Of a DNA stretch of 64,000 bases, positions 47,119 through 64,000 are shown piece by piece. A program made the translations under genes and the position numbers. Position 1 is the stretch's first letter. The number at the start of each line of letters is the position of its first letter. A model generated the notes under the pieces. That model searched no databases, was not told the DNA's origin, and saw nothing but the letters and a program-made list of their open reading frames with translations. This stretch comes from Comamonas testosteroni ATCC 11996 (GTDB taxonomy: Bacteria; Pseudomonadota; Gammaproteobacteria; Burkholderiales; Burkholderiaceae_C), in the NCBI RefSeq assembly GCF_000241525.1, contig NZ_AHIL01000002.1, positions 434,001 through 498,000 on the forward strand. The letters are read 5' to 3'.

Positions 47119-47652
47119 ATGAGCGAGATCGCACAAGACAACAGCGCCCGTACTTGGGATCGCCCCGAGGGCTCCAGCTTTGAAGACTGGATGAGCACAC
47201 GCATTGCACGCTTTGCCACGCGCAAGTACGACTTCGATGCCCTGAAGTTCCAGGCCGACTTTGATCCTAAATACCGCCGCGGCCAGATGCGTTACATCGG
47301 CACGGGCGGCACGGGCGTGGCCTCCGACAGCAACACCATTCCGTCGGAAAACTTCACCTTCTCCACCATGGTGATTCCTGCCGGCCATGAAGGCCCTTCG
47401 CATCTGCACACCGATGTGGAAGAAGTGTTCTTCGTGATGCGCGGCAAGCTCAAGCTGGTGCTGGAAAAGGACGGCGAGCGTTTCGAGACCATCCTGACCG
47501 ATCGCGATGTGGTTTCGGTGCCGCCTGGCGTGTACCGCGAAGAGATCAATGTCGGTGATGAAGATGCGCTGATGTGCGTGATGCTGGGTGCCAAAAAGCC
47601 CGTCACCCCGACCTATCCGCCCGAGCATCCTCTGGCCAAGATCAAGCGCTGA
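47119..47652 (+). CDS. Cupin-domain protein
   Basis: 177 residues. A helical N-terminal extension of about 55 residues (EDWMSTRIARFATRKYDFD) precedes one cupin barrel. HEGPSHLHTDVEEVFFVMRG supplies metal ligands His 95, His 97 and Glu 101 or 102, and DRDVVSVPPGVYREEIN gives the second motif. Single-domain cupins of this kind are dioxygenases, isomerases or sensors, so the reaction is open. AGGAGAGA precedes the ATG. It heads the operon with the hydrolase (8 bases apart), IclR 1, aspartate dehydrogenase and Bug 1. Confidence 0.85.
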   Translation: MSEIAQDNSARTWDRPEGSSFEDWMSTRIARFATRKYDFDALKFQADFDPKYRRGQMRYIGTGGTGVASDSNTIPSENFTFSTMVIPAGHEGPSHLHTDVEEVFFVMRGKLKLVLEKDGERFETILTDRDVVSVPPGVYREEINVGDEDALMCVMLGAKKPVTPTYPPEHPLAKIKR

Positions 47653-47660
47653 GCTTTGTC

Positions 47661-48539
47661 ATGCACGAGGATTTGCTGTCGCTGAAACTGCAGCTGCTGC
47701 AGACCGGTTTTCCCGAGCGACTGGTGAAGCTTCCCCAGGGCGTCCAGGTCGCCTGGCGCGAGGCAGGCGACGCCAGCTCCGACTTCGCGGTGGTGCTGCT
47801 GCATGGGATCAGCTCCGGGGCCGCATCCTGGCTGGATGTGGCGCTGCAGCTGGCTGACAAAGTGCGTGTCCTGGCCTGGGATGCCCCCGGTTATGGCGTG
47901 TCGACGCCGCTGGCCCAATCGGCGCCTGCCGATGCCGACTATGCGCAGGCGCTGGCCCAGTCGCTGCTGGTGCTGGGCGTGCGGCGCTGCATCCTGGTCG
48001 GGCACTCGCTGGGCGCCCTGATGGCAGCCAGGCTGGCGCTCATGGCCGCGCCGGGACTGGTCGAGCAACTGGTGCTCATCAGTCCGGCAGGCGGCTACGG
48101 CGCGGCGGCCAAGGCCGAGCAGCAAGCCAAGGTGCGCGAGGGCCGGCTGGCGGCTCTGGCCGACAAAGGCGTCGCCGGCCTGGCGGCCGTCATCGACCAG
48201 CGTCTGGTGTCTTCCGGGGCGCCTGAAGCCGTGCGTGCCTGGGTGCGCTGGAATACGGCGCGCCTGCAGCCGCAGGGCTATGCGCAGGCGGTCGAGTTGC
48301 TTTGCGGCAGCGATCTGGCACAGGCGCAGGGCAGGTTGGGCATGCCGGTCGAGGTTTGGGTCGGCGAGCACGATGTGGTGACTACACCTGCAGCTTGCAA
48401 GTCCTGGTCTGAGTTGCTGGGCGCGCACTACGGTACGCTTGCGGCTGCCGGTCATGCTTCACCCGTGGAACAACCAATGGAGGTCGCGCATAGGCTGGCA
48501 TCTTTGTTGAACCAAAGCTATTGCCCCAATACCAGCTGA
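47661..48539 (+). CDS. Alpha/beta hydrolase
   Basis: 292 residues. VVLLHGISSGAASW contains the oxyanion region, LVGHSLGALMA the nucleophile elbow with Ser 116, GEHDVVTTP the acid and GHASPVEQP the histidine. The fold and length fit the C-C hydrolases and enol-lactonases of aromatic degradation as well as esterases. It starts eight bases after cupin and is followed five bases later by IclR 1, so these are co-translated. A meta-cleavage product hydrolase is a sensible guess in view of the dioxygenase-like protein in block B. Confidence 0.85.
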   Translation: MHEDLLSLKLQLLQTGFPERLVKLPQGVQVAWREAGDASSDFAVVLLHGISSGAASWLDVALQLADKVRVLAWDAPGYGVSTPLAQSAPADADYAQALAQSLLVLGVRRCILVGHSLGALMAARLALMAAPGLVEQLVLISPAGGYGAAAKAEQQAKVREGRLAALADKGVAGLAAVIDQRLVSSGAPEAVRAWVRWNTARLQPQGYAQAVELLCGSDLAQAQGRLGMPVEVWVGEHDVVTTPAACKSWSELLGAHYGTLAAAGHASPVEQPMEVAHRLASLLNQSYCPNTS

Positions 48540-48544
48540 TTGCT

Positions 48545-49351
48545 ATGAGCGAAACCCCTGAGATTTCAACCAACGAACAAGACCGTTACACCGTGCCCGC
48601 TCTGGATCGAGGGCTGCGCCTGCTGGCCTGCTTTGGTCCGACGCAACCGGTCTGGAGCGCGCCCGAGCTGGCGCGCAAGCTCGAGCTGCCGCGCTCCACG
48701 GTGTTTCGCATGTTGACCACGCTTGAAAACTCGGGGTATCTGCAGCGCAGCGGAACCGAATACCGGCTCGGTCTGGCCGTGCTGCGCCTGGGCTATGACT
48801 ATCTGTCCACCCAGCCGCTGGCGCAACTGGCAGAGCCTGTGCTGCAGGCCTTGTGTGATGAGCTGGGCATGACCAGCAATCTTGCATTGCGCGACGGCAC
48901 TTCCGTGGTCTATGTGGCACGCGTCACTCCGTCCGGAGCATTCCAGGGCGCGGTGCGCGTGGGTTCGCGTCTGCCGGCGCATGCGACGGTGCTTGGGCGA
49001 GCCCTGCTGCATGACATGGATGGCGCGCAGCTGCGCTCGGTGTTCGGCGGCGAGGAACTGCCCCAGTTCTCCGAGAGCACGCCGCGCAATGTCGACGAGC
49101 TGCTGCGTCTGCTGGCCGAGGATCGCGAGCGCGGCTATGCCATGGGAGAGGGCTTTTACGAGCCTGGCGTTTCCAGTATTGCAGCGCCGGTGCGCGCCGC
49201 AGACGGGCAGGTGGTTGCGGGGCTGGGTATGGCCATTCCGTTTACCGAGCTGGGGCCCGAAAAAACCCAGCTCTGGGTGCAGAAGGTGCTGGAGGCGGCA
49301 GAGACTCTGTCGGCTCATTTGCGCCAGCAGCACCCGGACCATTTGCGCTGA
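48545..49351 (+). CDS. IclR-family transcriptional regulator 1
   Basis: 268 residues. The winged helix is clear in VPALDRGLRLLACFG and APELARKLELPRSTVFRMLTTLENSGYL (in pieces). The effector domain has SVVYVARVTPSGAF, VRVGSRLPAHATVLGRALL and REERGYAMGEGFYEPGVSSIAAPV-like stretches. It is clearly paralogous to IclR regulator 2 at 53.5 kb in the same island (same order of motifs throughout). Such proteins bind aromatic or glyoxylate-type effectors. It probably controls the cupin operon that contains it. Confidence 0.92.
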   Translation: MSETPEISTNEQDRYTVPALDRGLRLLACFGPTQPVWSAPELARKLELPRSTVFRMLTTLENSGYLQRSGTEYRLGLAVLRLGYDYLSTQPLAQLAEPVLQALCDELGMTSNLALRDGTSVVYVARVTPSGAFQGAVRVGSRLPAHATVLGRALLHDMDGAQLRSVFGGEELPQFSESTPRNVDELLRLLAEDRERGYAMGEGFYEPGVSSIAAPVRAADGQVVAGLGMAIPFTELGPEKTQLWVQKVLEAAETLSAHLRQQHPDHLR

Positions 49352-49393
49352 CCCAGATCACGCCGGGCCAGCGCATTTTTCAGGAGTCTAGAG

Positions 49394-50194
49394 ATGAAAA
49401 ATATTGCTTTGATTGGCTGCGGCGCGATTGGCTCCAGTGTTCTGGAGCTTTTGAGCGGAGATACCCGGTTGCAGGTGGGCTGGGTACTGGTTCCCGAGAT
49501 CACGCCAGCCGTGCGCGAGACGGCTGCCCGCCTGGCGCCACAGGCGCAGCTGCTGCAGGCCTTGCCCAGCGATGCGGTGCCGGATCTGCTGGTGGAATGC
49601 GCAGGCCATGCCGCCATCGAGGAGCATGTGCTGCCGGCGCTGGCGCGTGGCATTCCTGCGGTCATCGCATCCATAGGCGCCTTGAGCGCACCGGGCATGG
49701 CCGAGCGTGTACAGGCTGCGGCCGAGGCCGGCAACACACAGGCCCAGCTGTTGTCGGGCGCCATCGGCGGCATTGATGCCCTGGCTGCGGCGCGTGTCGG
49801 CGGCCTGGAGACGGTGGTCTACACGGGCCGCAAGCCGCCCAAGGCCTGGAGCGGTACCCCGGCCGAGCAGGTCTGCGACCTGGACAGCCTGACCGAGGCC
49901 TTCTGCATCTTCGAGGGATCGGCGCGCGAGGCCGCGCAGCTCTATCCCAAGAATGCGAATGTGGCGGCCACCTTGTCGCTGGCCGGACTGGGGCTGGACA
50001 AGACCATGGTGCGTCTGTTTGCCGATCCTGGCGTTCACGAGAACGTGCACCAGGTCGAGGCCCGAGGCGCCTTCGGCGCCATGGAACTGACCATGCGCGG
50101 CAAGCCGCTGGCGGCCAATCCCAAGACCTCGGCGCTGACGGTGTACAGCGTCGTGCGCTCGGTGCTCAACAACGTGGCGCCGCTGGCCATCTGA
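49394..50194 (+). CDS. nadX: L-aspartate dehydrogenase (NAD(P)-dependent)
   Basis: 266 residues. IALIGCGAIGSSVLEL is the Rossmann start; ASIGALSAPG, LLSGAIGGIDALAAAR and YPKNANVAATLSLAGLGLDKT are typical of the AspDH/NadX family, and HENVHQVEARG holds a conserved His. Known members oxidise L-aspartate to iminoaspartate or aminate oxaloacetate. Inside a catabolic operon a role with an amino-acid-like intermediate or with nitrogen release seems more likely than NAD synthesis. It lies 42 bases after IclR 1, with GGAGTC upstream. Confidence 0.88.
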   Translation: MKNIALIGCGAIGSSVLELLSGDTRLQVGWVLVPEITPAVRETAARLAPQAQLLQALPSDAVPDLLVECAGHAAIEEHVLPALARGIPAVIASIGALSAPGMAERVQAAAEAGNTQAQLLSGAIGGIDALAAARVGGLETVVYTGRKPPKAWSGTPAEQVCDLDSLTEAFCIFEGSAREAAQLYPKNANVAATLSLAGLGLDKTMVRLFADPGVHENVHQVEARGAFGAMELTMRGKPLAANPKTSALTVYSVVRSVLNNVAPLAI

Positions 50195-50386
50195 TCCGGC
50201 GCCAGGCCAGGGGCGCCATGCGCGCCACCGGCCCTGGCACCTCTCTTGCTTGTTGCTGAAACCTGCACGCAGACCTCTCCCACATCAGCATGGTGTCACG
50301 CCTGTGCGAATCTTTCCTTGCGCATCATCAAACAGGGCGCGCATCGAACCTCGGCCGGCTTGACATCTCCATCCTCTGGAACCCTC

Positions 50387-51373
50387 ATGCAACGCTCCGA
50401 CTTTCTCAAATCCTGCCTGGCGCTGGCCAGCGTCCTGGCTCTGCCCGTCGCCCATGCGGCGACTGCCACCGAGCAGCTTTCCGCTGCGCAGTTCACCGTC
50501 ATCGCGCCTTTCCCTGCCGGCGGTCCTGTGGACATCCTGGCGCGCATTCTGGCGACCGGCCTGACCGAGCATTACAAGCAGGCCGCCATCGTCGATAACC
50601 GTCCCGGTGCCAGCGGCAATATCGGCATCGACATGGTCAAGCGCGCCAAGCCCGACGGCCATACGCTGCTGGTCGTGCCTCAGGGCAATCTGACCATCAA
50701 TCCGACGCTGATGCCCAAGCTGCCCTACAGCGTGTTCGGCGACTTCGTGCCCGTGGCTTCCATGGGGCGCACGGCCAATGTCATTGCGGTCAATCCGCAG
50801 GTGCCGGCCAAGTCGGTTCAGGAGCTGGTGGCGCTGTCCAAGGCCAAGCCCAACTCCATCAGCTACGCTTCGCCCGGCGTGGGCTCCAGCCTGCATCTGG
50901 CCGGCGAGCTGTTCAAGGACAAGTCGGGCGCAGACATCATGCATGTGGCCTACAAAGGCTCGGCCCAGGGCGTGACCGATGTGCTGGGCGGCACCATTCC
51001 CATGATCGTGGCCAATCTGCCCACCGTGCTGCCACATTTGCAGTCGGGCAAGCTGCGCGCTCTGGCCGTGACCGATGGTTCGCGCTCGGGCTTTTTGCCC
51101 AATGTGCCGACCCTGGCCGAAGCTGGCGTGCCGGGGATTGCCATTTCCTCCTGGTATGGCGTGCTGGCTCCGAAGAACACGCCTGCAGAGGTGGTCAAGC
51201 AACTGGGCGAGGATATCGACAAGATTCTGAAGACCCCGGCAGCACTGAACCAGCTCAAGGCACAGGGGATGACGCCCTGGGTGGTCAAGGGCGAGGCCTT
51301 CGGCGAGCTGATCCGCAAGGAAACCGGACTCTGGGCGCCCATCATCAAAAGTCATGAGATCGAGGCGCAGTAG
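50387..51373 (+). CDS. Bug family tripartite tricarboxylate-type binding protein 1
   Basis: 328 residues. Signal peptide MQRSDFLKSCLALASVLALP, then VIAPFPAGGPVDILAR, VDNRPGASGNIGIDMV, KPDGHTLLVVPQGN, YASPGVGSSLHLAGELFK and VPTLAEAGVPG, all marks of the Bug receptors that capture carboxylic acids in the periplasm. Most Bug proteins lack linked TctAB membrane genes, as here. It is 192 bases after the aspartate dehydrogenase gene, so it may have a separate promoter. The ligand is probably the island's growth substrate or a close acid. Confidence 0.9.
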   Translation: MQRSDFLKSCLALASVLALPVAHAATATEQLSAAQFTVIAPFPAGGPVDILARILATGLTEHYKQAAIVDNRPGASGNIGIDMVKRAKPDGHTLLVVPQGNLTINPTLMPKLPYSVFGDFVPVASMGRTANVIAVNPQVPAKSVQELVALSKAKPNSISYASPGVGSSLHLAGELFKDKSGADIMHVAYKGSAQGVTDVLGGTIPMIVANLPTVLPHLQSGKLRALAVTDGSRSGFLPNVPTLAEAGVPGIAISSWYGVLAPKNTPAEVVKQLGEDIDKILKTPAALNQLKAQGMTPWVVKGEAFGELIRKETGLWAPIIKSHEIEAQ

Positions 51374-51504
51374 GCCCTCGTGCTCTAATCGCGCCTCTTG
51401 CGCATCCCCCAAAAGCGGCCTGGTGCCGCTTTTGTGCTTTCCTTGTACTTTCTTTTGTGCTTTCACCAGGGCCGCCCGGCCCATGTTCCGGAGTATCCCC
51501 ATCC

Positions 51505-52263
51505 ATGACGCTTGCCATTCTCAGCGCTCTTGCCGAAGAACAACACGGCCTGGTCGACGCCATGCAGGGCATGCAATGCCTGCGCCATGCCGGGCGCGAC
51601 TTCTGGCTGGGCAGGCTGCATGGTCACGAGGTGGTGTGCGCGCTGTCGGGCATCGGCAAGGTGGCCGCTGCCACCACCACCGCCGCGCTGATCGAGCGCT
51701 TCGGCGTGCGCGGCATTCTGTTCACTGGCGTGGCCGGCGGCATCGGCGCGGGCGTGAACGTGGGCGATGTGGTCATCGCGCGGACTTTCCTGCAGCATGA
51801 CATGGATGCCTCGCCGATCTTTCCGCGCTGGCAGTTGCCCGGCTACGGCTGCAGCACCATGGCCTGCGACGCGGCGGCGACGGACAGGCTGGTGCAGGCT
51901 GCCGACTCTGCGGTTCGCTCCGGCATCGTGGCTTCATATGCTTCGGCTCGCGTCCATCAGGGCTTGATTGCCAGCGGCGATCAGTTTGTCAGCTCGCGCC
52001 AGGCCAGCGCCCAGCTCAGAGCCGATCTGGAGGCTGCCGGCCACGCCGTGCTGGCTGTGGAGATGGAGGGCGCCGCCGTGGCCCAGACCTGCCTGGATTA
52101 CGGCACGCCGTTTGCCGCGATGCGAACCATCTCGGACCGGGCGGACGACAGCGCCCATGTGGACTTCTCGGATTTCGTGCGCACGGTGGCAAGCCGCTAC
52201 GCGCAACGCGTGGTACTGGACTTTCTGCGCCAGACACCTGCGAAGAAGCAGGCTGTTTGCTAA
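51505..52263 (+). CDS. mtnN: 5'-methylthioadenosine/S-adenosylhomocysteine nucleosidase
   Basis: 252 residues. LAILSALAEEQHGLVDAM, SGIGKVAAATTTAALIERF, GVAGGIGAGVNVGDVV, LIASGDQFV, VEMEGAAVAQTC and AMRTISDRADD (with the catalytic Asp) are family motifs. It hydrolyses MTA and SAH to adenine and thioribose or ribosylhomocysteine, serving methionine salvage and removal of methyltransferase inhibitor. It separates the two blocks of the catabolic island and is not obviously related to them. It is followed by an AGCT-type repeat and a terminator. Confidence 0.92.
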   Translation: MTLAILSALAEEQHGLVDAMQGMQCLRHAGRDFWLGRLHGHEVVCALSGIGKVAAATTTAALIERFGVRGILFTGVAGGIGAGVNVGDVVIARTFLQHDMDASPIFPRWQLPGYGCSTMACDAAATDRLVQAADSAVRSGIVASYASARVHQGLIASGDQFVSSRQASAQLRADLEAAGHAVLAVEMEGAAVAQTCLDYGTPFAAMRTISDRADDSAHVDFSDFVRTVASRYAQRVVLDFLRQTPAKKQAVC

Positions 52264-52527: not shown

Positions 52528-52566
52528 TTGTTTCAAGAAAAAAGTGTCATTTCATATTTGAAACAA
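52528..52566. promoter_or_regulatory. IclR-type operator candidate before SDR 1
   Basis: TTGTTTCA (52528-52535) and TGAAACAA (52559-52566) are perfect complements; the inner TTTCA-TATT-TGAAA (about 52550-52563) is also an inverted repeat. Half-sites TGTTTCA and TGAAACA resemble boxes of the IclR family such as that of KdgR. They follow the -10 box, where a repressor would block transcription. Confidence 0.55.
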
Positions 52567-52578
52567 ACAAGGTTTAAG

Positions 52579-53355
52579 ATGACCCTCAACACCATGCCTT
52601 CCACCGGTCAGCTCGCTGGGCGCCGGATTCTTGTGACCGGCGCTGCGCGCGGCCTGGGTTTTGCTTTTGCGCAGACGCTGTGCCAGCAGGGGGCGCAGCT
52701 TGTGATGGCCGATCTGCGCGCTGAATTGCTGAACGAAGCCGTTGCCAAGCTGCGCGCCATGGGCTTCGAGGCTCACGGCGTCGCCTTTGATGCCAGCAAC
52801 CCGGATTCCATCGAACAGTGCGCACAGCAGGCCGTGCAGACCCTCGGCGGCCTGGACGGCCTGGTCAACAACGCGGCCGTGACGGACTCCGGCGGCAAGG
52901 GCATGGACGACATCGCCCTGGACAAATGGGATCAGGTGATGAACGTCAACGTGCGTGGCGTCTGGCTGATGACCCGTGCCTGCCGCGCGGCTCTCAAGGA
53001 CAGCGGTCGTGGTGCCATCGTCAATCTGGCTTCCGACACTGCCATGTGGGGCGCTCCCAACCTGATGGCCTATGTGGCGAGCAAGGGTGCCGTGATGGCC
53101 ATGACGCGTTCCATGGCGCGCGAGCTGGGCGCGGACGCCATCACCATCAATGCCGTGGCGCCGGGCCTGGTGCTGGTCGAGGCCACCGAGTACGTGCCCG
53201 AGCACCGCCATCGTCTCTATATCGACCAGCGCGCGTTGCAGCGCGAGCAGGGACCCGAGGATGTCTCGGGTGCCGTGTCCTATCTGCTGTCGGACGGTGC
53301 GCGCTTTGTGACGGGCCAGGTGCTGCCCGTCAACGGCGGCTTCGTCATGAACTGA
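52579..53355 (+). CDS. Short-chain dehydrogenase/reductase 1 (classical)
   Basis: 258 residues with all classical SDR elements: LVTGAARGLGFAF (cofactor loop, 19-31), LVNNAAVTDSGG, Ser 152 in NLASDTAMWG, Tyr 165 and Lys 169 in AYVASK, and PGLVLVEAT. AAGG stands six bases before the ATG at 52579. It oxidises an alcohol or reduces a ketone with NAD(P). As first gene of block B it may oxidise a dihydrodiol or side-chain alcohol. A GC-rich tail repeat follows its stop codon. Confidence 0.9.
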   Translation: MTLNTMPSTGQLAGRRILVTGAARGLGFAFAQTLCQQGAQLVMADLRAELLNEAVAKLRAMGFEAHGVAFDASNPDSIEQCAQQAVQTLGGLDGLVNNAAVTDSGGKGMDDIALDKWDQVMNVNVRGVWLMTRACRAALKDSGRGAIVNLASDTAMWGAPNLMAYVASKGAVMAMTRSMARELGADAITINAVAPGLVLVEATEYVPEHRHRLYIDQRALQREQGPEDVSGAVSYLLSDGARFVTGQVLPVNGGFVMN

Positions 53356-53440: not shown

Positions 53441-53516
53441 GGCGACGGAAACGGTGCATGCAGCGGGGGCGCTTCAAGCTTGGGTGCAACAAGCTGGAAT
53501 GAACCGAAAGTTGGGT

Positions 53517-54389
53517 ATGTCTGCTTCCACTATTCCTGAAGATGCTGGTGGCGCGCCGGACGGCGGCTCCGACAAGTACATGGTGCCCGCGCTGGAGCGC
53601 GGTCTGCGCCTGCTGCAGGAGTTCGGCCGCGACAACGCCACGCTGGGCGCGCCGGAGCTGGCGCGTCGCCTGCAGCTGCCGCGCGCCACGGTGTTCCGCA
53701 TGCTCAACACGCTGGAGAGCATGGGCTTTTTGCAGCGCGCCGAGGGCGGCAACGACTACCGGCTGGGCCTGTCCGTGCTGCGTCTGGGCTTCGAGTTCCT
53801 GTCCTCCATGGACCTGACCGAGCTGGGCCAGCCCGTGATCGCGCGGCTGTGCGAGGAAATCCGCTTCCCCTGCAACATCGTGGTGCGCGACGGCCGCTCC
53901 ATCGTCTATGTGGCCAAGGTCACGCCTCCGACGCCGCTGACCAGCTCGGTGCGCGTGGGCACGCGGCTGCCTGCCCATGCCACGCTGCTGGGCCGCATCC
54001 TGCTGGCCGATCTCTCGCTGCCCGAGCTGCGCGCCCTCTATCCCGAAGAGCATCTGGAAGGCCATTCGCCCAATACGCCCAGGACCGTGGTCGAGCTGTT
54101 CGACCTGGTTCAGTCCGATCGCGAGCGCGGCCATGTGGCCGGTGCCGGTTTCTACGAAAGCTCGATCTCCACCATCGCCGCGCCCGTGCGCGACCACAGC
54201 GGCCGCGTCATCGCGGCCCTGGGCGTGACCCTGGCCTCGGCCCAGATCGATCTCGCGCGCCAGACGGAGCTGGTGCCGCGTGTCTGCGCGGCGGCAGCCG
54301 AACTGTCGGAGCTGCTCAACTACCGGCCGCAGTCCAGCGCGCAGGTTCTGTCCATCACTTCAAGGCGCGCAGGAGGCGGCCATGCATGA
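53517..54389 (+). CDS. IclR-family transcriptional regulator 2
   Basis: 290 residues from the ATG at 53517 (an ATG at 53499 is also possible). MVPALERGLRLLQEFG, APELARRLQLPRATVFRMLNTLES and RLGLSVLRLGFEFLSS parallel IclR 1; SIVYVAKVTPPTPLTSSVRVGTRLPAHATLLGRILL (in pieces) gives the effector domain. The last codons overlap the next gene, whose ATG at 54382 lies inside it, so the two are translationally coupled. It probably regulates block B through the palindromes before SDR 1. Confidence 0.92.
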   Translation: MSASTIPEDAGGAPDGGSDKYMVPALERGLRLLQEFGRDNATLGAPELARRLQLPRATVFRMLNTLESMGFLQRAEGGNDYRLGLSVLRLGFEFLSSMDLTELGQPVIARLCEEIRFPCNIVVRDGRSIVYVAKVTPPTPLTSSVRVGTRLPAHATLLGRILLADLSLPELRALYPEEHLEGHSPNTPRTVVELFDLVQSDRERGHVAGAGFYESSISTIAAPVRDHSGRVIAALGVTLASAQIDLARQTELVPRVCAAAAELSELLNYRPQSSAQVLSITSRRAGGGHA

Positions 54390-55182
54390 TTTCAAACTCG
54401 ACGCGACAGCCGTCGTCACCGGCGGCTCTTCGGGCATAGGCCTGGCCACCGTGGAGCTGCTGCTGGCCCAGGGCTCACGCGTGGCTCTGTGCGGCCGCAA
54501 TCCCGAACGCCTGGAGCAGGCCGTCAAGCAGCTGCTCGAGCGCCACCCCGAAGCCCGCGAGCGCCTGTTCGCCCAGGCCTGCGACGTGCTCGATGCCGAG
54601 CAGGTGCAGCAGTTCGCCCGCGCCAGCGAAGCGGCGCTGGGCCCGGCTTCCATCCTCATCAACAACGCCGGCCAGGGCCGTGTCTCGACCTTCGAGAACA
54701 CCAGCGACGAAGCCTGGACCGAGGAGCTGCACCTGAAGTTCTTCTCGGTGCTGCATCCCACGCGCGCCTTTCTGCCGCAGCTCGAGCGCGGCGAAGGCTC
54801 GGCCATCGTCTGTGTGAACTCGCTGCTGGCCTCCCAGCCCGAGCCCCACATGGTCGCGACCTCGGCGGCGCGCGCCGGCCTCAAGAACCTGGTGCGCTCC
54901 ATGGCCACCGAGTTCGCGCCCAAGGGCGTGCGCGTCAACGGCATCCTGGTCGGCCTCATCGAGTCAGGCCAGTGGCGCCGCCGCTTCGAGGCCCGTGAGG
55001 ACCGCAGCCAGAGCTGGGAGCAGTGGAGCGCCGAGCTGGCCCGCAAGAAGTCCATTCCGCTGGGTCGCCTGGGATCACCCGCTGAAGCCGCGCGCGCCAT
55101 TTTCTATCTCGCCACGCCCCTGTCGTCATACACGACCGGCAGCCATATCGATGTTTCCGGAGGCCTTTCGAGATATGCGTAG
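54382..55182 (+). CDS. SDR-family protein with substituted Tyr/Lys active site
   Basis: 266 residues. Cofactor loop AVVTGGSSGIGLATVELLL and LINNAGQGRVS are normal. The catalytic Ser is kept (Ser 147 in VCVNSLLA), but where YxxxK should stand the sequence is TSAAR: Thr 160 replaces Tyr and Arg 164 replaces Lys, judged by the 13-residue distance from Ser 147 and by alignment with SDR 1. The structure is probably intact (PKGVRVNGILVG, YTTGSHIDVSGG), so it may catalyse a different step or only bind NAD(P). AGGAGG precedes its ATG. A tail repeat follows. Confidence 0.85.
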   Translation: MHDFKLDATAVVTGGSSGIGLATVELLLAQGSRVALCGRNPERLEQAVKQLLERHPEARERLFAQACDVLDAEQVQQFARASEAALGPASILINNAGQGRVSTFENTSDEAWTEELHLKFFSVLHPTRAFLPQLERGEGSAIVCVNSLLASQPEPHMVATSAARAGLKNLVRSMATEFAPKGVRVNGILVGLIESGQWRRRFEAREDRSQSWEQWSAELARKKSIPLGRLGSPAEAARAIFYLATPLSSYTTGSHIDVSGGLSRYA

Positions 55183-57043: not shown

Positions 57044-58519
57044 ATGTCGAACCTAGAACTGCTCCCCATCAATATCGGCGGCGAATGGCGTCTTGGCGGC
57101 GGCGACGAGTCCGCCACGCTCTACCCCGCAACCGGCGAGGTGGTGGGCCGCCTGCGCGCTCCCAGCCTGGCCGATGTGCAAGAGGCCATCGAGAAGGCCG
57201 ACCATGCCTTTCGCACCAGCGGCTGGGCCCAGAAGAAGCCCCATGAGCGTGCCGCCGTGCTGCACCGCGTGGCCCAGCTGATCCGCGAGCGTGCCGAGCC
57301 TCTGGCCCAGCTGCAGCGCCTCGATAACGGCAAGCCCATCAGCGAGACGCGCGCCCTGGTGGCCAGCGCCGCCGGCACCTTCCAGTTCTTCGCGGCAGCC
57401 TGCGAGACCATGGAGGAGACCATCACGCCCTCGCGTGGCGACTTCATGACCATGAGCGTCTATGAGCCCATGGGCGTGGTCGCGGCCATCACGCCGTGGA
57501 ACTCGCCCATCGCCAGCGAGGCGCAAAAGCTCGCCCCCGCGCTGGCCGCCGGCAACGCCGTGGTCGTCAAGCCCGCCGAGGCCACGCCGCTGCTGGCGCT
57601 GGAGCTGGCCAAAATCTGCGAAGAGGCCGGCGTGCCCAAGGGCATCGTCAGCGTGCTGCCCGGCCGTGGCTCGGTGATCGGCGACGCCATCACCAAGCAC
57701 CCGCTGGTCAAGCGCGTGTCGTTCACGGGCGGCACTTCCACCGGCAAGCACATCGCCCGCATTGCGGCCGACAAGATGATGCCTGTCTCGCTGGAGCTGG
57801 GCGGCAAGTCGGCCACCATGGTGCTGGAGGACGCCGACCTCGACCATGCCGTCAACGGTGTGCTCTACGGCATCTTCAGCTCCTCGGGCGAATCCTGCAT
57901 CGCGGGCTCGCGCCTGTTCGTGGCACGCAAGCTCTACGGCGACTTCATGGAGCGCCTCACGGCCAAGGCCGCCGCCTTGCGCGTGGGCGATCCGGCCGAC
58001 GAGCGCACCCAGATGGGCCCGCTGATCACCGCCAAGCACCGCGAATCCATCGAGAGCTATGTGCAGCTGGGCCTGTCCGAAGGCGGCCGGCTGCGCACCG
58101 GCGGCCACCGCCCTGAGGGTGCGCTGTACGAGCGCGGCTACTACTACCGCCCGACCATCCTCGAAGGCGTGACCAACAACGACCAGATCTGCCAGCAGGA
58201 GATCTTCGGCCCCGTGCTCGTGGCCATGCCCTTCGATGACGAAGAGGCCTTGCTTGAGCAGGCCAACGACAGCGTCTACGCACTGGCTGCCGGCATCTGG
58301 ACGCGCGACTACAAGGCCGCCTGGCGCATAGGCCGCGCGGTGCAGGCCGGTACCGTGTGGATCAACACCTACAAGCAGTTCTCCATCTCCACGCCCTTCG
58401 GCGGCTGGCGCGACAGCGGCCTGGGCCGCGAGAAGGGACGGCTGGGCATACAGCAGTACATGGAGCAGAAAAGCATGTACTGGGGCTTGAACGAACACCC
58501 GCTGGCCTGGGCAAATTAA
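57044..58519 (+). CDS. Aldehyde dehydrogenase family protein
   Basis: 491 residues. ITPWNSPIASEAQKLAPALAAGNAVVVKPAE (in pieces) holds Asn 153 and the cofactor Lys; SFTGGTSTGKHI, LELGGKS with Glu 251, and SSGESCIAGSRLFV with nucleophile Cys 285 are present, as is the late PFGGWRDSGLGREKG. It oxidises an aldehyde to an acid with NAD(P)+. It directly follows the ThDP enzyme and is nine bases before the VOC gene, so all three form a translationally close module. Confidence 0.94.
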   Translation: MSNLELLPINIGGEWRLGGGDESATLYPATGEVVGRLRAPSLADVQEAIEKADHAFRTSGWAQKKPHERAAVLHRVAQLIRERAEPLAQLQRLDNGKPISETRALVASAAGTFQFFAAACETMEETITPSRGDFMTMSVYEPMGVVAAITPWNSPIASEAQKLAPALAAGNAVVVKPAEATPLLALELAKICEEAGVPKGIVSVLPGRGSVIGDAITKHPLVKRVSFTGGTSTGKHIARIAADKMMPVSLELGGKSATMVLEDADLDHAVNGVLYGIFSSSGESCIAGSRLFVARKLYGDFMERLTAKAAALRVGDPADERTQMGPLITAKHRESIESYVQLGLSEGGRLRTGGHRPEGALYERGYYYRPTILEGVTNNDQICQQEIFGPVLVAMPFDDEEALLEQANDSVYALAAGIWTRDYKAAWRIGRAVQAGTVWINTYKQFSISTPFGGWRDSGLGREKGRLGIQQYMEQKSMYWGLNEHPLAWAN

Positions 58520-58528: not shown

Positions 58529-59488
58529 ATGAGCGTACTGGGCATTGACGAAATCAGCTACGGCGCCGACGACCTGGCGGCCTGCCGCCAGTTCTTCCTC
58601 GACTGGGGCCTGAGCCTGGTCGACGAGCAGGCCGACCGGCTGGTGTTCGAGACACTGAACGGCTGCCGCGTGATCGTGGCTGCCACCAATCACCCCGATC
58701 TGCCGCCCGCTATCGAGCCCGGCCCCACGCTGCGCGAGGTGGTCTGGGGAGTGGAAAGCGAAGCAGACCTGGCTTTGTATGCAGATCGCATCCGCGCGCT
58801 TCCAGGCTTCGTCCAGGGCAATGGCCGCATCGGCTGCACCGACCCCAACGGCCTGGCCGTGCGCCTGCAGCTCACGCAAAAGCGCGATGTGCAGATGCAA
58901 AGCGCCGAGTACAACACCTGGGACCGCAAGGGCCGTATCAACCAGGCCAGCCCGGCCTATGAGCGCGCCCAGCCCATCGAGGTCGGCCATGTGGTGTTCT
59001 TCGTCAAGGACGTGCAGGCCTGCGAGCGCTTCTATGTGGAGAACTTCGGCTTTGCGGCCTCGGACCGCTATCCCGAGCGCGGCGCCTTCCTGCGTACCGC
59101 GCCCGATGGCGGTCACCACGACATCTTCTTGCTGCAGCGCCCCGACAAGCATGCGGGCCTGAACCATGTGGCCTTCACCGTGCGCGACATTCACGAGGTC
59201 TTCGGCGGTGGCATGCACATCTCGCGCTGCGGCTGGGACACCCAGCTCGGCCCGGGTCGCCACCCCGTGTCCTCGGCCTATTTCTGGTACTTCAAGAATC
59301 CGGCCGGTGCGCTGGTTGAGTACTACGCCGATGAGGACCAGCTGACTGCCGACTGGCAGCCGCGCGAGTTCGAACCCGGACCGACGGTGTTTGCCGAATG
59401 GGCCATTGACGGCGGCCTGGACGGCAACACCCGACGCCAGAAGGGCGTGGGCGCTGCCGACGGCAAGTTTCTGACCGACAAGAAATGA
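58529..59488 (+). CDS. Two-domain VOC protein, type I extradiol dioxygenase-like
   Basis: 319 residues with two vicinal-oxygen-chelate domains. The C-terminal domain keeps the 2-His-1-carboxylate set: His 154 (VGHVVFFV), His 213 (LNHVAFTV) and Glu 264 (LVEYYAD). In the N-terminal domain the corresponding His is Tyr 11, as in true extradiol enzymes, whose N-terminal half is not catalytic. It may cleave a catechol-like ring with Fe(II) or Mn(II), but similarity to known catechol dioxygenases is only general. GGAGCG precedes the ATG. A tail repeat follows. Confidence 0.82.
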   Translation: MSVLGIDEISYGADDLAACRQFFLDWGLSLVDEQADRLVFETLNGCRVIVAATNHPDLPPAIEPGPTLREVVWGVESEADLALYADRIRALPGFVQGNGRIGCTDPNGLAVRLQLTQKRDVQMQSAEYNTWDRKGRINQASPAYERAQPIEVGHVVFFVKDVQACERFYVENFGFAASDRYPERGAFLRTAPDGGHHDIFLLQRPDKHAGLNHVAFTVRDIHEVFGGGMHISRCGWDTQLGPGRHPVSSAYFWYFKNPAGALVEYYADEDQLTADWQPREFEPGPTVFAEWAIDGGLDGNTRRQKGVGAADGKFLTDKK

Positions 59489-59650: not shown

Positions 59651-60628
59651 ATGAAAAACATTCGTCGCCAGGTAGTTATCGCTGCTGCATTGCTGGCTGC
59701 AGCCCAGATGTCAGGTTCCGCGCTGGCGCAAGCCTATCCGAGCAAGCCCATCACCATCGTCGTGGCCTATCCGGCTGGCGGCGATACCGATGCCATGGCA
59801 CGCCTGTATGCCGAGAAGCTGGGCCAGCGACTGGGGCAGCCCGTGGTGGTGGACAACCGGCCCGGTGCCAGCGGCACCATCGGCACCGTGCATGTGGCCA
59901 AGGCCGCACCCGACGGCTACACCTTGCTGCTGGCGCCCAATACCTTTGCCATCGCCCAGTTCGTGCTCAAGACCAACGCGGGTTCGAGCTACGACGTGCT
60001 CGGCGGCTTCACGTCCATCGTGCAGACCAGCGTGCAGCCCATGTTCGTGGCCGCCAGTCAGAGCTCGGGCATCAAGGACATCAAGGCCCTGGCGATCCAG
60101 GGCAAGCGCGACGGCCTGACCTATGCCAGCCCCGGCAGCGGCTCGCCCATGCACATCCTGGGCGAGATGTTCAACAAGGCCGCTGGCACCAAGCTGTCCC
60201 ACATTCCCTACAAGGGCGTGGCGCCCGCAGTCAACGATCTGATCGGCGGCCATGTGCCCACGACCTTCATGACCTGGGGGCCCATCGCGCCCTATGCAGG
60301 CGGCAAGGTCAACGTGCTGGCCGTGGCCGATGCGCAGCGCAGCCCGCTGGCACCGAATGTGCCCACACTGGCCGAGCAGGGCGTCAAGGATGTGGAAGTG
60401 TCGGCCTGGCAAGGCCTGTTCGGCCCCAAGGGAATGAAGCCCGAGACCGTCAAGCTGCTGAACACCCACCTCAATGAAATTCTGAGGATGCCGGACGTGG
60501 TCGCCAAGATGGCGGCCTTCGGCGCCCTGCCTGCGGGCGGCGAGCCGGCACGTCTGGAAAAGACCAACGCTGCCGACTACAACCGCTTCGGCAAGCTCAT
60601 CAAGGACCTGGATATCCGGGCCGACTAA
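59651..60628 (+). CDS. Bug family tripartite tricarboxylate-type binding protein 2
   Basis: 325 residues. Signal peptide MKNIRRQVVIAAALLAAAQM, then PITIVVAYPAGGDTDAMAR, VVDNRPGASGTIGTVHV, YTLLLAPNTFAI, TYASPGSGSPMHILGEMF and VPTLAEQGVKDVEV, the Bug pattern. It differs clearly from Bug 1, so the two may bind different acids or the substrate and an intermediate. No membrane components are linked. Tail repeats lie on both sides, which isolates it as a single-gene module. Confidence 0.9.
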   Translation: MKNIRRQVVIAAALLAAAQMSGSALAQAYPSKPITIVVAYPAGGDTDAMARLYAEKLGQRLGQPVVVDNRPGASGTIGTVHVAKAAPDGYTLLLAPNTFAIAQFVLKTNAGSSYDVLGGFTSIVQTSVQPMFVAASQSSGIKDIKALAIQGKRDGLTYASPGSGSPMHILGEMFNKAAGTKLSHIPYKGVAPAVNDLIGGHVPTTFMTWGPIAPYAGGKVNVLAVADAQRSPLAPNVPTLAEQGVKDVEVSAWQGLFGPKGMKPETVKLLNTHLNEILRMPDVVAKMAAFGALPAGGEPARLEKTNAADYNRFGKLIKDLDIRAD

Positions 60629-60633
60629 ATGAC

Positions 60634-60716: not shown

Positions 60717-60812
60717 TCGGGCCGCGCCAGTTTCACGCGATACGGGTGGCACGCAGCGCTCCGGGCGATGAAACCGAACCACGATTCAAGACAGTTTTCG
60801 AAGGAGAGAACC

Positions 60813-61034
60813 ATGGCCGCTGATCGATATCTCGAGCCGCATCAGGCGCGCGAGCGCGCCTCCACCCTGTTTGAGGACCTGCTGGGCGACTCCATTGAGC
60901 GCGCCTTCGGCGAGGGCGTGCAGACGCTGCCCGAGCTGGTGGCCTACATCAACCGCAGCGGCCCCGCCGGCGAGAACGGCGAGCCCTGGACCGAAGACAG
61001 CTTTCAGGCGCTGATGGCCCGTCTGGGCTATTGA
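60813..61034 (+). CDS. 73-residue recombinase-like helix-turn-helix protein
   Basis: A small acidic protein with AAGGAGAGA a few bases before its ATG. It is helical, with LFEDLLGDSIERAFGEGVQTLPELVAYINRSG (in pieces) and PWTEDSFQALMARLG, a spacing like the helix-turn-helix that serine recombinases use. I recall a family of such short proteins encoded next to Rieske oxygenases in betaproteobacteria. It is too small to be a recombinase and may be a regulator or an oxygenase partner. It lies 24 bases before the Rieske gene. Confidence 0.6.
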   Translation: MAADRYLEPHQARERASTLFEDLLGDSIERAFGEGVQTLPELVAYINRSGPAGENGEPWTEDSFQALMARLGY

Positions 61035-61058
61035 GACAGAACAGGACAGGAGTACCCC

Positions 61059-62084
61059 ATGAACGTACAAACCATCACCATCAATCCGGTGGACCGTTTG
61101 CTCAACACGGGTCTGAAGAACCTCTGGTATGCGGTCTGCCCTTCGGATTTCGTCAAGACCGAGCCCGTCTCGCTGCGCCGCTTCGGCCGCAAGATCGCGC
61201 TGTGGCGCGACGCTGCCGGTCAGGTCCATGCGCTGGAAGACCACTGCCCGCACCGCGGCGCGCCGCTGTCCCAGGGCGTGATCCTGGGCGACCGCCTGGC
61301 CTGCCCCTACCACGGAGTGGAAGTGCGCTGCGACGGCACGGTGACCAAGGTGCCCGGCAGCCCCGGCTGCAAGCTCGAAGGCTCGCGTGCCGCGCTGGCC
61401 TTCCATGTGCGCGAGATGCACGGCGCGATCTTCCTCTACAACAGCGACAAGCATGTGGACGAGGCTCCCGATTTCAGCCTGCCCGAGGAACTGAGCTCGC
61501 CCGAGTACTCGAACTTCCTGTGCTATGCCGAGTGGCGCAGCGACTACCGCTACGCGCTGGACAACGTCATGGACCCCATGCACGGCACCTTCCTGCACAA
61601 GCAGTCGCACTCCATGGCCGAGGGCGACAGCAAGGCCAGCTTCCAGGTGCGTGACACCGATCACGGCTTCGTGTTCGAGAAGGTCGGCCAGCGCGGCGTG
61701 AACTTCGACTGGACCGAATATGGCGAAACCGGCGTGCAGTGGATGCGCCTGGAGATCCCGTACCCCAAGACCGGCGGCCCCGGCGGCAACTTCGCCATCG
61801 TCGCCTGCGTCACGCCCATCAGCGCCGATCTGTGCGCCGTGTTCTTCTGGCGCGCGCGCAAGGTGCAGGGCTGGATGCGCGACACCTGGCGTTTCCTCTA
61901 CCGCAACCGCCTCGAGGCGCGCCACTGGGCCGTGCTGGAGCAGGACCGCATCATGATGGAGCAGATGGAAGCCGACGCCAATGAGCGCGAGAACCTCTAC
62001 CAGCATGACATCGGCCTGGTGCGCCTGCGTCGCCACCTGCGTCGTCAGGCCCAGGAACAGATCGACGAAGGCATCGCATCATGA
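61059..62084 (+). CDS. Rieske non-haem iron oxygenase, phthalate/vanillate type, oxygenase component
   Basis: 341 residues. The N-terminal Rieske domain has DHCPHRGAPL and ACPYHGVEV, with ligands Cys 63, His 65, Cys 82 and His 85. The catalytic domain shows YALDNVMDPMHGTFLH, giving mononuclear iron ligands from His 175, His 180 and a later acidic residue, with Asp 168 or 172 bridging to the Rieske centre. The length and absence of a beta subunit fit the single-subunit phthalate 4,5-dioxygenase/vanillate demethylase group, which hydroxylates or O-demethylates aromatic acids. The reductase gene overlaps by four bases. Confidence 0.93.
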   Translation: MNVQTITINPVDRLLNTGLKNLWYAVCPSDFVKTEPVSLRRFGRKIALWRDAAGQVHALEDHCPHRGAPLSQGVILGDRLACPYHGVEVRCDGTVTKVPGSPGCKLEGSRAALAFHVREMHGAIFLYNSDKHVDEAPDFSLPEELSSPEYSNFLCYAEWRSDYRYALDNVMDPMHGTFLHKQSHSMAEGDSKASFQVRDTDHGFVFEKVGQRGVNFDWTEYGETGVQWMRLEIPYPKTGGPGGNFAIVACVTPISADLCAVFFWRARKVQGWMRDTWRFLYRNRLEARHWAVLEQDRIMMEQMEADANERENLYQHDIGLVRLRRHLRRQAQEQIDEGIAS

Positions 62085-63040
62085 GCAACAGCTTGCAGGC
62101 CTTTGTGCACACGCTGCGCTTCGAGGCCCAGGACACCATCAGCGTGGAGCTGCGCCCGGTCGATGGCGGCGAGTTCCCTGCCTTCACGGCCGGCTCGCAT
62201 ATCGACCTGCACCTGCCCAACGGGCTGGTGCGCAGCTATTCCCTGTCCAACGACAGCAGCGAGCGCCATCGCTACGTGGTCGGCGTGCTGCGCGATCGCG
62301 CCAGCCGCGGTGGCTCGCGCTGCGTGCACGAGTCGCTGCGCGTGGGCATGCCCATCACCATCTCCGAGCCGCGCAACCACTTCGCGCTCGACGAGACGGC
62401 AACGCATTCGGTGCTGGTGGCTGGCGGCATCGGCATCACGCCCATGCTGTGCATGGCACGCCGCTTGAAGAGCTTGGGACATTCGTTCGAGATGCTGTAC
62501 TTTGCGCGCGAGCGCAAGAGTGCGGCCTTTCTGGCCGAGCTGCAGGCCCTGGGCATGCCACTGCACCTGCACTTCGATGCCGAGGCGGGCGGGCCGCCCG
62601 ACCTGCGGGCATTGCTGGCGCAGCGCGCCCCCGAGGCGGGCCTGCACCACTATTCCTGCGGCCCGACGCCCATGCTTGATGCCTTCGAGAAGTTCTGCGC
62701 GGAGCTCGGTCATGCCAATGCCCATATCGAGCGCTTCACGCCCGTGGAGGTCAAGGCATCGTCCGATGCGCGCAGCAACTACACGGTGGAGCTCAAGCGC
62801 AGCGGCCGCTTCATCGAGATCACGCCCGAGAAGTCCCTGCTGGACACGCTGCTGGACGCCGGTGTCGATGTGGATCACAGCTGCTGCGAAGGGGTCTGCG
62901 GCTCCTGCGAGACCCGTGTGCTGGAAGGCGTTCCCGACCACCGCGACTCGGTGCTCAGCCCCAAGGAGCGCGCTGGCAACAAGGTCATGATGGTCTGCGT
63001 CTCCGGCTGCAAGAGCGAGCGCCTGGTCCTGGATATATGA
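62081..63040 (+). CDS. Ferredoxin-NAD(P)H reductase of the PDR/VanB type
   Basis: 319 residues in the order flavin domain, NAD domain, plant-type ferredoxin. RSYSLSN (51-57) binds FMN, GGIGITPM (115-122) binds NAD(P)H, HYSCGPTPML follows, and Cys 268, 273, 276 and 306 hold the [2Fe-2S] cluster. This matches phthalate dioxygenase reductase and VanB and supplies electrons to the Rieske oxygenase. The ATGA overlap with that gene means coupled translation. Tail repeat 6 follows the stop. Confidence 0.95.
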   Translation: MSNSLQAFVHTLRFEAQDTISVELRPVDGGEFPAFTAGSHIDLHLPNGLVRSYSLSNDSSERHRYVVGVLRDRASRGGSRCVHESLRVGMPITISEPRNHFALDETATHSVLVAGGIGITPMLCMARRLKSLGHSFEMLYFARERKSAAFLAELQALGMPLHLHFDAEAGGPPDLRALLAQRAPEAGLHHYSCGPTPMLDAFEKFCAELGHANAHIERFTPVEVKASSDARSNYTVELKRSGRFIEITPEKSLLDTLLDAGVDVDHSCCEGVCGSCETRVLEGVPDHRDSVLSPKERAGNKVMMVCVSGCKSERLVLDI

Positions 63041-63160
63041 CACCCCCTGAGTCGCTTCGCGCCTTCCCCCCTCTCTGTATCCGCTTCGCGGGAGAGGGGG
63101 GCGGCACCCTCGGCGCGGGGCTGCGCGGCCGGCCCGCGTCCTTCATCGGTGTCCCTGAGC
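63041..63160 (+). repeat. GC-rich tail repeat, copy 6 (after the reductase)
   Basis: CACCCCCTGAGTCGCTTCGC, GCCTTCCCCCCTCTCTG, CGCGGGAGAGGGGGGCGGC and ACCCTCGGCGCGGGG, then a longer GC-rich insertion and TTCATCGGTGTCCCTGAG. It is the longest copy. Confidence 0.88.
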
Positions 63161-63237
63161 TGGACCATGCTGAATTGACGAGTGAGGCCCTGGGCCAGCA
63201 ACTGAAGACAACCCACCACCCCTAGAGGAGACAAACC

Positions 63238-64000
63238 ATGAAATCCATCCATACGCCGGCCCTCGGCGTGGCGCTAGCCTGCCTGGCATCTTTGCCCGGC
63301 GCCGCTTCGGCACAGTCCAAGGTCGAGCTTTTCGGCGTCGTCGACGTCGGCGTGGCTCATCTGGGCGGCTCGGGAGCCTCCAAGACCGGCCTTTCCACAG
63401 GCGGCGCCAACATCAGCCGCCTGGGCTTTCGCGGCACCGAGGATCTGGGCGGCGGCCTTAAGGCGGGCTTCTGGCTCGAGGCCGGCCTGGACGTGGACAG
63501 CGGCGCCGGCAAGGCCACGGGCGGCGGACTGAGCTTCAATCGCCGCTCCACCGTGAGCCTGATGGGCAACTGGGGCGAGGTGCGCCTGGGGCGCGACGAC
63601 TCGGCCACCTTTCTGAACACGCTGATCTTCGATCCCTTCCTGACCAACGGCGTGGGCGGCACGGGTGCCTTCACCATGCTGGGCATTCCGGGCGTTCCCT
63701 CGACCGGCGGCGCGCCCATACAGATCAGCAATGCAGTGAGCTATTTCCTGCCCCAGAACCTGGGCGGCTTCTACGGTCAGGCTCAGCTGGCATTCGGCGA
63801 GCAGCCCAGCGGCGCGCCCAACAAGCGCGAGGGCGACTATCGCGGCCTGCGCCTGGGCTACCGCCAGGGCGCGTTCAACGGCGCGCTGGCCACGGGCCGT
63901 CTCTACGGCAACACCAGCGACACCAATCTGACGGCGAACAATGTGGGTCTGTCCTACGACTTCGGTGTGGCCAAGCCCATGCTGCTGTGGGCCTCGGAAA
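63238..64000 (+). CDS. Gram-negative porin, 5' part (runs off the window)
   Basis: The frame opens with MKSIHTPALGVALACLASLP and a signal cleavage after ASAQ, then KVELFGVVDVGVAHLGGSG and ISRLGFRGTEDLGGGLKAGFWLEAGLD (in pieces), typical of the first strands of betaproteobacterial trimeric porins (OmpC/Omp32-like, family Porin_4). GSWGEVRLGRDDSA-type text (NWGEVRLGRDDSATF) marks the loop before the constriction. GAGGAG precedes the ATG. About 254 codons are in the window. It probably admits the island's aromatic acid through the outer membrane. Confidence 0.9.
   Translation, partial: MKSIHTPALGVALACLASLPGAASAQSKVELFGVVDVGVAHLGGSGASKTGLSTGGANISRLGFRGTEDLGGGLKAGFWLEAGLDVDSGAGKATGGGLSFNRRSTVSLMGNWGEVRLGRDDSATFLNTLIFDPFLTNGVGGTGAFTMLGIPGVPSTGGAPIQISNAVSYFLPQNLGGFYGQAQLAFGEQPSGAPNKREGDYRGLRLGYRQGAFNGALATGRLYGNTSDTNLTANNVGLSYDFGVAKPMLLWASE

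Follow-up and report, generated by a model that had tools for sequence, protein, structure and literature searches.

What does a bacterium degrade with a set of genes whose families are all familiar, but whose combination matches no pathway that can readily be named? The question is raised by the last part of a stretch of 64,000 nucleotides of Comamonas testosteroni ATCC 11996 (contig NZ_AHIL01000002.1; G000:C62:434001-498000), referred to here as the window, in which an earlier note, made from the sequence alone, had described a two-block catabolic island for an aromatic or related carboxylic acid. The assignment to aromatic acid catabolism is supported by the present analysis. The island probably represents a single, locally split regulon for degradation of kynurenate (4-hydroxyquinoline-2-carboxylate) through the classical quinoline pathway. 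Kynurenic acid, which is formed from tryptophan, has neural and immune activity in animals. The chemistry by which bacteria break it down has been known since the 1960s; to our knowledge, the first enzymes of the pathway are still without sequences.

Seventeen open reading frames lie on the plus strand from position 47119 past the window end, one more than the sixteen counted previously, when the HTH_62 gene was missed. The gene families named in the earlier note are all present as intact reading frames, and only the porin runs off the window end. All 17 genes were compared with NCBIfam and 11 of them with Pfam; the genes, together with two operator-like sites, are as follows.

47034 to 47072: operator-like site A, a 39-bp imperfect palindrome (TTGTTTC-N26-AAACAA), 46 bp before the cupin start
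47119 to 47652, plus strand: cupin (PF07883)
47661 to 48539, plus strand: alpha/beta hydrolase (PF12697/PF00561), PcaD-like but far under curated cut-offs
48545 to 49351, plus strand: IclR regulator 1, PcaR/PcaU/PobR-like (TIGR02431, 183 bits, under the cut-off of 284.75)
49394 to 50194, plus strand: L-aspartate dehydrogenase (AspDH) family (NF009827, 472 bits, cut-off 226)
50387 to 51373, plus strand: Bug-type (tripartite tricarboxylate) receptor 1 (PF03401 TctC, 242 bits)
51505 to 52263, plus strand: mtnN (NF004079, 280 bits, cut-off 169)
52528 to 52566: operator-like site B, of the same pattern and spacing, 12 bp before the SDR1 start
52579 to 53355, plus strand: first short-chain dehydrogenase/reductase, SDR1 (PF13561)
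53499 to 54389, plus strand: IclR regulator 2, PcaR/PcaU/PobR-like (TIGR02431, 171 bits, under cut-off)
54382 to 55182, plus strand: second short-chain dehydrogenase/reductase, SDR2 (NF005468, 450.6 bits, cut-off 266)
55311 to 57008, plus strand: thiamine diphosphate (ThDP) enzyme (NF005470, 892 bits, cut-off 495)
57044 to 58519, plus strand: aldehyde dehydrogenase (ALDH), BADH/HpaE-like, under the cut-off in all 25 of the best-matching families listed
58529 to 59488, plus strand: vicinal oxygen chelate (VOC) type I extradiol dioxygenase, HpaD/catechol 2,3-dioxygenase-like, under cut-offs
59651 to 60628, plus strand: Bug-type receptor 2 (PF03401 TctC, 186 bits)
60813 to 61034, plus strand: HTH_62 'recombinase-like' small protein, 73 amino acids (PF20552, 105.9 bits)
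61059 to 62084, plus strand: Rieske oxygenase (PF00355 and PF19112)
62081 to 63040, plus strand: NAD(P)H/2Fe-2S reductase, partner of the Rieske oxygenase (Fer2 and NAD-binding domains; reductase families)
63238 to 64000, plus strand: outer-membrane porin, cut by the window end (PF13609, 150.8 bits)

The start of SDR2 overlaps IclR regulator 2 by 8 bases, and the Rieske and reductase genes overlap by 4 bases. Curated NCBIfam cut-offs are reached by four genes, those for AspDH, SDR2, the ThDP enzyme and mtnN; as suspected earlier, mtnN is the one gene that looks unrelated to the rest. The names of NF005468 ('SDR family oxidoreductase') and NF005470 ('thiamine pyrophosphate-binding protein') are of family type only, and the pathway is thus unrecognised by NCBIfam (June 2026). 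Past the porin lies a transporter of the major facilitator superfamily (MFS; PF07690; contig 498406-499725, equivalent to window positions 64406-65725), homologues of which occur in 28 of 87 loci and come after the porin 20 times in 104 loci, so the island extends beyond the window.

Relatives were collected by an alignment scan with the ThDP enzyme, one genome per species, which gave at least 570 confirmed ThDP relatives. The best 80 were kept and include Delftia, Comamonas, Paracidovorax, Variovorax, Cupriavidus, Ralstonia, Herbaspirillum and Pseudomonas. The search for the same gene set in other genomes, proposed in the earlier note, covered 130 loci, all picked for encoding a ThDP relative, and at least four of six core genes are held by 103 of them. 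The 27 excluded loci comprise 20 other contexts of the ThDP family (L119-L134, L137, L140, L141 and L145) and seven with several cluster genes that fall short of the four-of-six rule (L110, L111, L113, L115, L116, L136 and L139). Adjacency counts refer to 104 loci and used thresholds other than that rule; L015 and L028 are one contig and close relatives were left unthinned, so locus counts are not independent.

Across the 104 loci the genes are nearly always co-oriented and their order is similar; among the best 80 relatives it typically runs importer, SDR1, cupin, hydrolase, IclR, SDR2, ThDP, AspDH, and then ALDH, VOC, (receptor or flavin hydroxylase), HTH_62, Rieske, (RidA), reductase and porin. 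Cupriavidus and Ralstonia have HTH_62 and the Rieske gene placed before SDR1. In the 104 loci, HTH_62 stands directly before the Rieske gene 83 times and the porin after the reductase 51 times and, among profile-matched genes, SDR2 adjoins the ThDP gene 95 times. The constant core consists of VOC, SDR2, ThDP, AspDH, ALDH and hydrolase, mostly with the cupin. In the 103 loci, chosen by ThDP, SDR2 was found in 101 and ALDH in 97; VOC was scored in 92, partly because its profile is weak for distant hosts. The gene set is no chance assembly; it is real and conserved.

AspDH lies between the ThDP and ALDH genes in most loci (next to them among profile-matched genes in 94 and 92 of the 104, respectively), and this position bears on whether it belongs to the pathway at all. 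AspDH could be a passenger serving NAD synthesis or nitrogen assimilation, the island then degrading a nitrogen-free aromatic acid; records do annotate the cluster AspDH with NAD biosynthesis, and in the window AspDH and the ThDP gene lie in different blocks. However, besides its usual position, AspDH is kept in the cluster in hosts as distant as Vibrio, Paracoccus and Klebsiella, and a passenger role appears very unlikely. The earlier suggestion of a nitrogen-containing intermediate is supported by the same position and by the family signature that AspDH retains.

AspDH is separated from the ThDP, SDR2 and ALDH genes only in L015, L021 and L028 (Delftia) and in L023 (Paracidovorax wautersii), which have the arrangement of the window. 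From the uncut order in relatives, the block upstream of mtnN (block A) is read as the middle of the operon, shifted a few kb upstream with mtnN between. As judged by gene order, the two blocks are one catabolic unit and the split is a local rearrangement. That the blocks belong together, as had been claimed, is thus borne out by the ThDP-AspDH adjacency and by the 39-bp site that the blocks share; the two-block layout itself is not a feature of the system, which is uncut in most relatives.

The pattern TTGTTTC-N26-AAACAA is perfect at only two places in the 5.4-Mb genome, one upstream of each block, where base composition predicts about 0.015 perfect matches per genome, and 20 shuffles of the window gave 0 matches at one mismatch or fewer. 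Both sites are present in Delftia L021 and L028, with one mismatch each, and in Paracidovorax L023, with three mismatches at the cupin site and two at the SDR1 site. The uncut operon of Comamonas sp. BIGb0152 has one perfect site just before SDR1 (L024:140-178). At up to two mismatches a site upstream of SDR1 occurs in 4 of 89 relatives, the L024 site having been found separately, and the site is thus confined to the near lineage. The two IclR regulators would be expected to bind at these 39-bp sites.

The first step of the pathway can be approached through genes that are lost together. The Rieske oxygenase and SDR1 are both present in 91 of the 103 loci, and nine of the other 12 lie where a stretch or contig ends. 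The remaining three, L018 and L019 (of a different class in the phylum) and L105 (Vibrio nigripulchritudo), have ample flanks and lack both genes, an absence that applies to the locus only, and each of them carries a flavin monooxygenase. Such a monooxygenase is found in 35 of the 103 loci, 31 of them with the Rieske gene; among solved structures it comes nearest to 6-hydroxynicotinate 3-monooxygenase and tropone 2-monooxygenase. SDR1 directly follows the Rieske gene 30 times in the 104 loci, and the Rieske and mononuclear-iron motifs are conserved in relatives. Because SDR1 is present or absent with the Rieske gene as one module, it is best read as a putative dihydrodiol dehydrogenase beside a dioxygenase. 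The operon would so be fed by one of two ring-hydroxylating entries, Rieske/SDR1 or flavin hydroxylase, and in relatives that have the flavin hydroxylase, xanthurenate (8-hydroxykynurenate) can probably serve as a starting point. The electron partner of the oxygenase differs among relatives: in place of the reductase of the window, Klebsiella and Caballeronia have a ferredoxin and a separate reductase, and plasmids of Pseudosulfitobacter, Paracoccus and Nitratireductor a flavodoxin beside a flavin adenine dinucleotide (FAD) oxidoreductase.

These three alphaproteobacterial plasmids carry the order Rieske-SDR1-hydrolase-VOC-SDR2-ThDP-AspDH-ALDH, which suggests that decarboxylation comes after ring cleavage; it parallels the proposed order of reactions, AspDH and the hydrolase excepted. 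In the earlier note, alcohol oxidation, decarboxylation and aldehyde oxidation had been placed before the Rieske and VOC steps, an order to which both the Rieske-SDR1 module and the plasmid arrangement run counter. In a route of this kind, oxidation of an aromatic hydroxy or amino acid by an SDR or by AspDH would yield a benzoylformate-like 2-oxo acid, which would pass through the ThDP enzyme and ALDH before Rieske and VOC attack. A ThDP enzyme with an aldehyde dehydrogenase is the classic mandelate-type pair, which the island shares with the mandelate/benzoylformate pathway, and benzoylformate decarboxylases belong to the superfamily of the ThDP enzyme. Unlike that pathway, the island is without a flavin-type mandelate dehydrogenase, adds Rieske, VOC, AspDH and cupin genes, and has its SDR1 tied to the Rieske gene. 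The ThDP enzyme, in which E55 and the GDG...N cofactor motif are conserved, has the uncharacterised PRK07064 as its best curated family, followed by AruI-like and acetolactate-synthase-like families, all scoring higher than benzoylformate decarboxylase, which is also far down the list of solved structures. AspDH, with its signature intact, would have no clear task in such a route, and we consider oxidation of the side chain before the ring to be unlikely.

The remaining core enzymes were examined for their catalytic residues. The three iron-ligand stretches of homoprotocatechuate 2,3-dioxygenase, at what we take to be its ligand positions, align with VOC and are conserved in relatives. SDR2 has a solved close homologue (3lf1/3lf2, 412 bits), a structure named after accession Q9HYA2, by which we take SDR2 to be tied to Pseudomonas aeruginosa. 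The histidine of the ENxH stretch of AspDH aligns with that of the solved AspDH 2dc1, and by family and catalytic stretch the protein is predicted to be an L-aspartate dehydrogenase. In the cupin, the H-x-H and E residues are conserved and the best PDB match is the quercetinase QueD (E 3.5e-6). In the hydrolase, GHSLG and a late GHA are conserved; its model has a pLDDT (predicted local distance difference test) of 96 and matches, at similar scores, esterases, an enol-lactonase, haloperoxidases, a C-C hydrolase and E-2-(acetamidomethylene)succinate hydrolase. A RidA-family protein (enamine/imine deaminase family; L061:16545-16979) and a protein of 105 amino acids (L061:14968-15285), which has no Pfam or NCBIfam match, occur in an identical 23 of 87 loci, which suggests that they are a functional pair.

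What substrate would use all of these enzymes? The AspDH signature points towards iminosuccinate and so towards a pyridine with a carboxyl group beside the nitrogen and oxygen at position 4. A catechol is expected, since a dioxygenase with an SDR and a flavin hydroxylase acting on a phenol both give one, and a reductase, a ThDP decarboxylase and an aldehyde dehydrogenase would have a natural substrate in the ring-opened 2-oxo acid. The quinoline pathway is favoured because it accounts for catechol cleavage, a 2-oxo acid and iminosuccinate alike. From the enzymology of the 1960s, the Pseudomonas pathway proceeds by dioxygenation, dehydrogenation, extradiol cleavage, reduction, decarboxylation and aldehyde oxidation, for each of which the island has one family, and the order of intermediates is as in KEGG.

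Under this proposal, kynurenate would be taken up through the porin, the two Bug receptors and the MFS carrier that lies beyond the window end. The Rieske oxygenase and its reductase, both with intact motifs, would add O2 at C7-C8 of kynurenate (kynurenate 7,8-dioxygenase), and SDR1, as the 7,8-dihydrodiol dehydrogenase, would restore aromaticity to give 7,8-dihydroxykynurenate. VOC would then cleave the 8-8a bond as 7,8-dihydroxykynurenate 8,8a-dioxygenase, SDR2 would reduce the side-chain double bond of the cleavage product, the ThDP enzyme would decarboxylate the 2-oxo acid, and ALDH would oxidise the formylethyl intermediate to 5-(2-carboxyethyl)-4,6-dihydroxypicolinate. For the lower half we propose that the cupin, with O2, could open the dihydroxypicolinate ring to N-(2-oxoglutaryl)aminofumarate, that the alpha/beta hydrolase could split its amide to leave 2-oxoglutarate, and that AspDH could reduce the released aminofumarate/iminosuccinate to aspartate. 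All 12 pathway equations written balance, with one step per conserved enzyme; a hydrolytic variant ending in glutarate balances too. The fuller version of the proposal, in which the operon supplies the missing kynurenate genes, its lower half is new chemistry with a metal cupin opening the ring and AspDH (RidA in some relatives) removing aminofumarate, kynurenate yields 2-oxoglutarate and aspartate, and xanthurenate enters through the flavin hydroxylase, is put forward tentatively, as somewhat less than an even chance.

Delftia acidovorans, which we take to be a user of the kynurenate quinoline pathway, carries the operon (L021). Several of the intermediates are named in the literature: 7,8-dihydro-7,8-dihydroxykynurenate as an intermediate in an excerpt of PMC8778235, 7,8-dihydroxykynurenate and 5-(3'-carboxy-3'-oxopropyl)-4,6-dihydroxypicolinate in an excerpt of PMC11364965, and 5-(2'-carboxyethyl)-4,6-dihydroxypicolinate in an excerpt of PMC10543884, where it is listed under tryptophan metabolism. 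Among the titles in excerpted reference lists, one of 1963 concerns 7,8-dihydroxykynurenic acid (PMC5610271) and one of 1961 ties kynurenate breakdown to glutamate synthesis (PMC11354673). The 1961 title fits 2-oxoglutarate as a product.

The same chemistry might serve another fused pyridine carboxylate (quinaldate, another 4-quinolone-2-carboxylate or an analogue) as main substrate, with kynurenate an intermediate or a minor one. Enzymes of these families fix bond types and not substituents, and the importers differ between lineages (NMT1-type ATP-binding cassette (ABC) 24, MFS-like 31 and Bug-like 63 of the 103 loci; both Bug receptors of the window have homologues inside the operon in relatives). 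However, an iminosuccinate end would need a 4-oxygenated pyridine-2-carboxylate, of which kynurenate and xanthurenate would be the common natural cases, and we give a different main substrate only a small chance. Routes for 2-aminophenol, anthranilate, nicotinate, picolinate, pyridoxine, quercetin, homarine and auxin were considered and rejected, as none gave roles to all of the conserved genes. For the auxin iad genes of Variovorax, the portion of PMC10374108 consulted, in a comparison of words only, has no match for thiamine, short-chain dehydrogenase or aldehyde dehydrogenase.

Several findings weigh against kynurenate as the substrate. No kynA, kynB or kynU homologue was found in 87 neighbourhoods of up to about 22 kb, a set that does not extend to L105-L147 and for which the kynB query, which matches the Cyclase family, was named by eye. 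The window genome has a kynureninase, by which tryptophan may go to anthranilate. All seven sampled genomes of the family to which the window belongs have tryptophan dioxygenase, five of them without the cluster. An excerpt of PMC4938989 records that kynurenic acid built up to about 100 uM in a kynU mutant of P. aeruginosa. This build-up is awkward if the copy of the operon presumed for that species is active. As to the enzymes, the second-motif histidine of the cupin is replaced by arginine and its model is of middling confidence (pLDDT 71), so that ring opening by the cupin is the weakest of the proposed steps. The fold search of the hydrolase does not tell amide hydrolases from ester or C-C hydrolases, and ALDH, the hydrolase and SDR1 are under the cut-off of every family among the matches listed. 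At one mismatch, the operator pattern gives 6 rows in the genome compared with 9 for its reversed control. The looser pattern, which adds two unrelated genomic places, is thus uninformative, the reversed control being no rarer, and the case for an operator rests on the two perfect sites and their positions.

The distribution of tryptophan dioxygenase bears on where kynurenate would come from. The enzyme is encoded in 36 of 43 cluster-bearing genomes, chosen from the best 80. It is encoded in six of eight cluster-type genomes compared with 39 of 242 others (Fisher), where the eight omit the ThDP-positive G303 and G454 (other contexts) and include G300 and G423 (loci that failed the four-of-six rule); with G303 and G454 included the figures are 6 of 10 and 39 of 240. 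Co-occurrence with the dioxygenase was rejected as proof, being confounded by phylogeny, as its presence in all seven family members indicates. The seven cluster genomes without tryptophan dioxygenase all have the NMT1-type ABC importer. The dioxygenase is lacking in 7 of 12 genomes with this importer and 0 of 31 without, a post hoc comparison from a few lineages in which kinship is ignored; the pattern is suggestive, and fits uptake of an external substrate.

No characterised gene cluster of the same content was found, as the earlier note had supposed. In the open-licence literature, a scope that leaves most subscription journals outside, no paper naming genes for the kynurenate quinoline pathway was found, and the gene assignment is likely to be novel. 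P. aeruginosa presumably carries a copy of the operon (PA3498-PA3514). Six further locus tags of this species gave no paper holding two of them together in the same literature. PA3505 is predicted to be essential in three of four host-like media in an excerpt of PMC9732424, which mentions no such pathway.

The island has partial likenesses to other known systems. Naphthalene/biphenyl-type upper pathways combine a Rieske oxygenase, an SDR dihydrodiol dehydrogenase and an extradiol dioxygenase, as the island does, whereas ThDP decarboxylation would here replace the hydratase-aldolase or C-C hydrolase step after cleavage. With VanAB/VanA-type Rieske systems the island shares an oxygenase with a VanA_C domain and a 2Fe-2S reductase but, unlike in VanAB, the electron partner is exchangeable across its relatives. 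The flavin hydroxylase of relatives resembles the 6-hydroxynicotinate 3-monooxygenase of nicotinate/picolinate (nic, pic) clusters, with which we know of no other gene set in common.

If the proposal is true, an operon labelled 'SDR', 'VOC', 'thiamine-binding' and 'aspartate dehydrogenase' would acquire a function across many genomes, and simple assays could link long-known enzyme activities to sequences. AspDH would gain a catabolic role, and the presence of RidA in the operon a likely reason.

Genomes that encode a ThDP-family protein above the family cut-off number 9 of 299 in the phylum, 10 of 250 in the order, 27 of 337 in the class of G238 (probably Alphaproteobacteria) and 3 of 247 in the order of G166. 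Among 25 loci from the 27 genomes of the G238 class, 16 show the ThDP gene in another context, so the operon itself can be no commoner than these counts indicate. Most of the operon, or all of it, was found on large replicons of Vibrio, Novosphingobium, Pseudosulfitobacter, Paracoccus, Caballeronia, Nitratireductor and Klebsiella; plasmid records of Cupriavidus and Burkholderia gave a ThDP match only, and Variovorax sp. SRS16 has the ThDP gene in another context. Many members of NF005470 lie outside the operon, as in the 20 loci of other context listed above, so the family mixes at least two functions.

Three observations concern individual loci. In L024, the uncut operon of Comamonas sp. BIGb0152, ThDP, ALDH and VOC are 92-95% identical to those of the window, and AspDH, hydrolase and SDR2 only 55-75%; the uneven identities may be taken as a sign of recombination within the operon. 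The Klebsiella aerogenes 'plasmid' of L146 (LR134124.1) has tktA, pgk, fbaA, rpiA and serA beside the operon and is probably a piece of chromosome. The tryptophan locus of the window genome (L103:583-10469; G000:C23) holds kynA, kynU, a Cyclase-family gene taken as kynB, an MFS carrier and a flavin monooxygenase with 32-38% identity to that of related operons, which is possibly a detached xanthurenate or salicylate hydroxylase.

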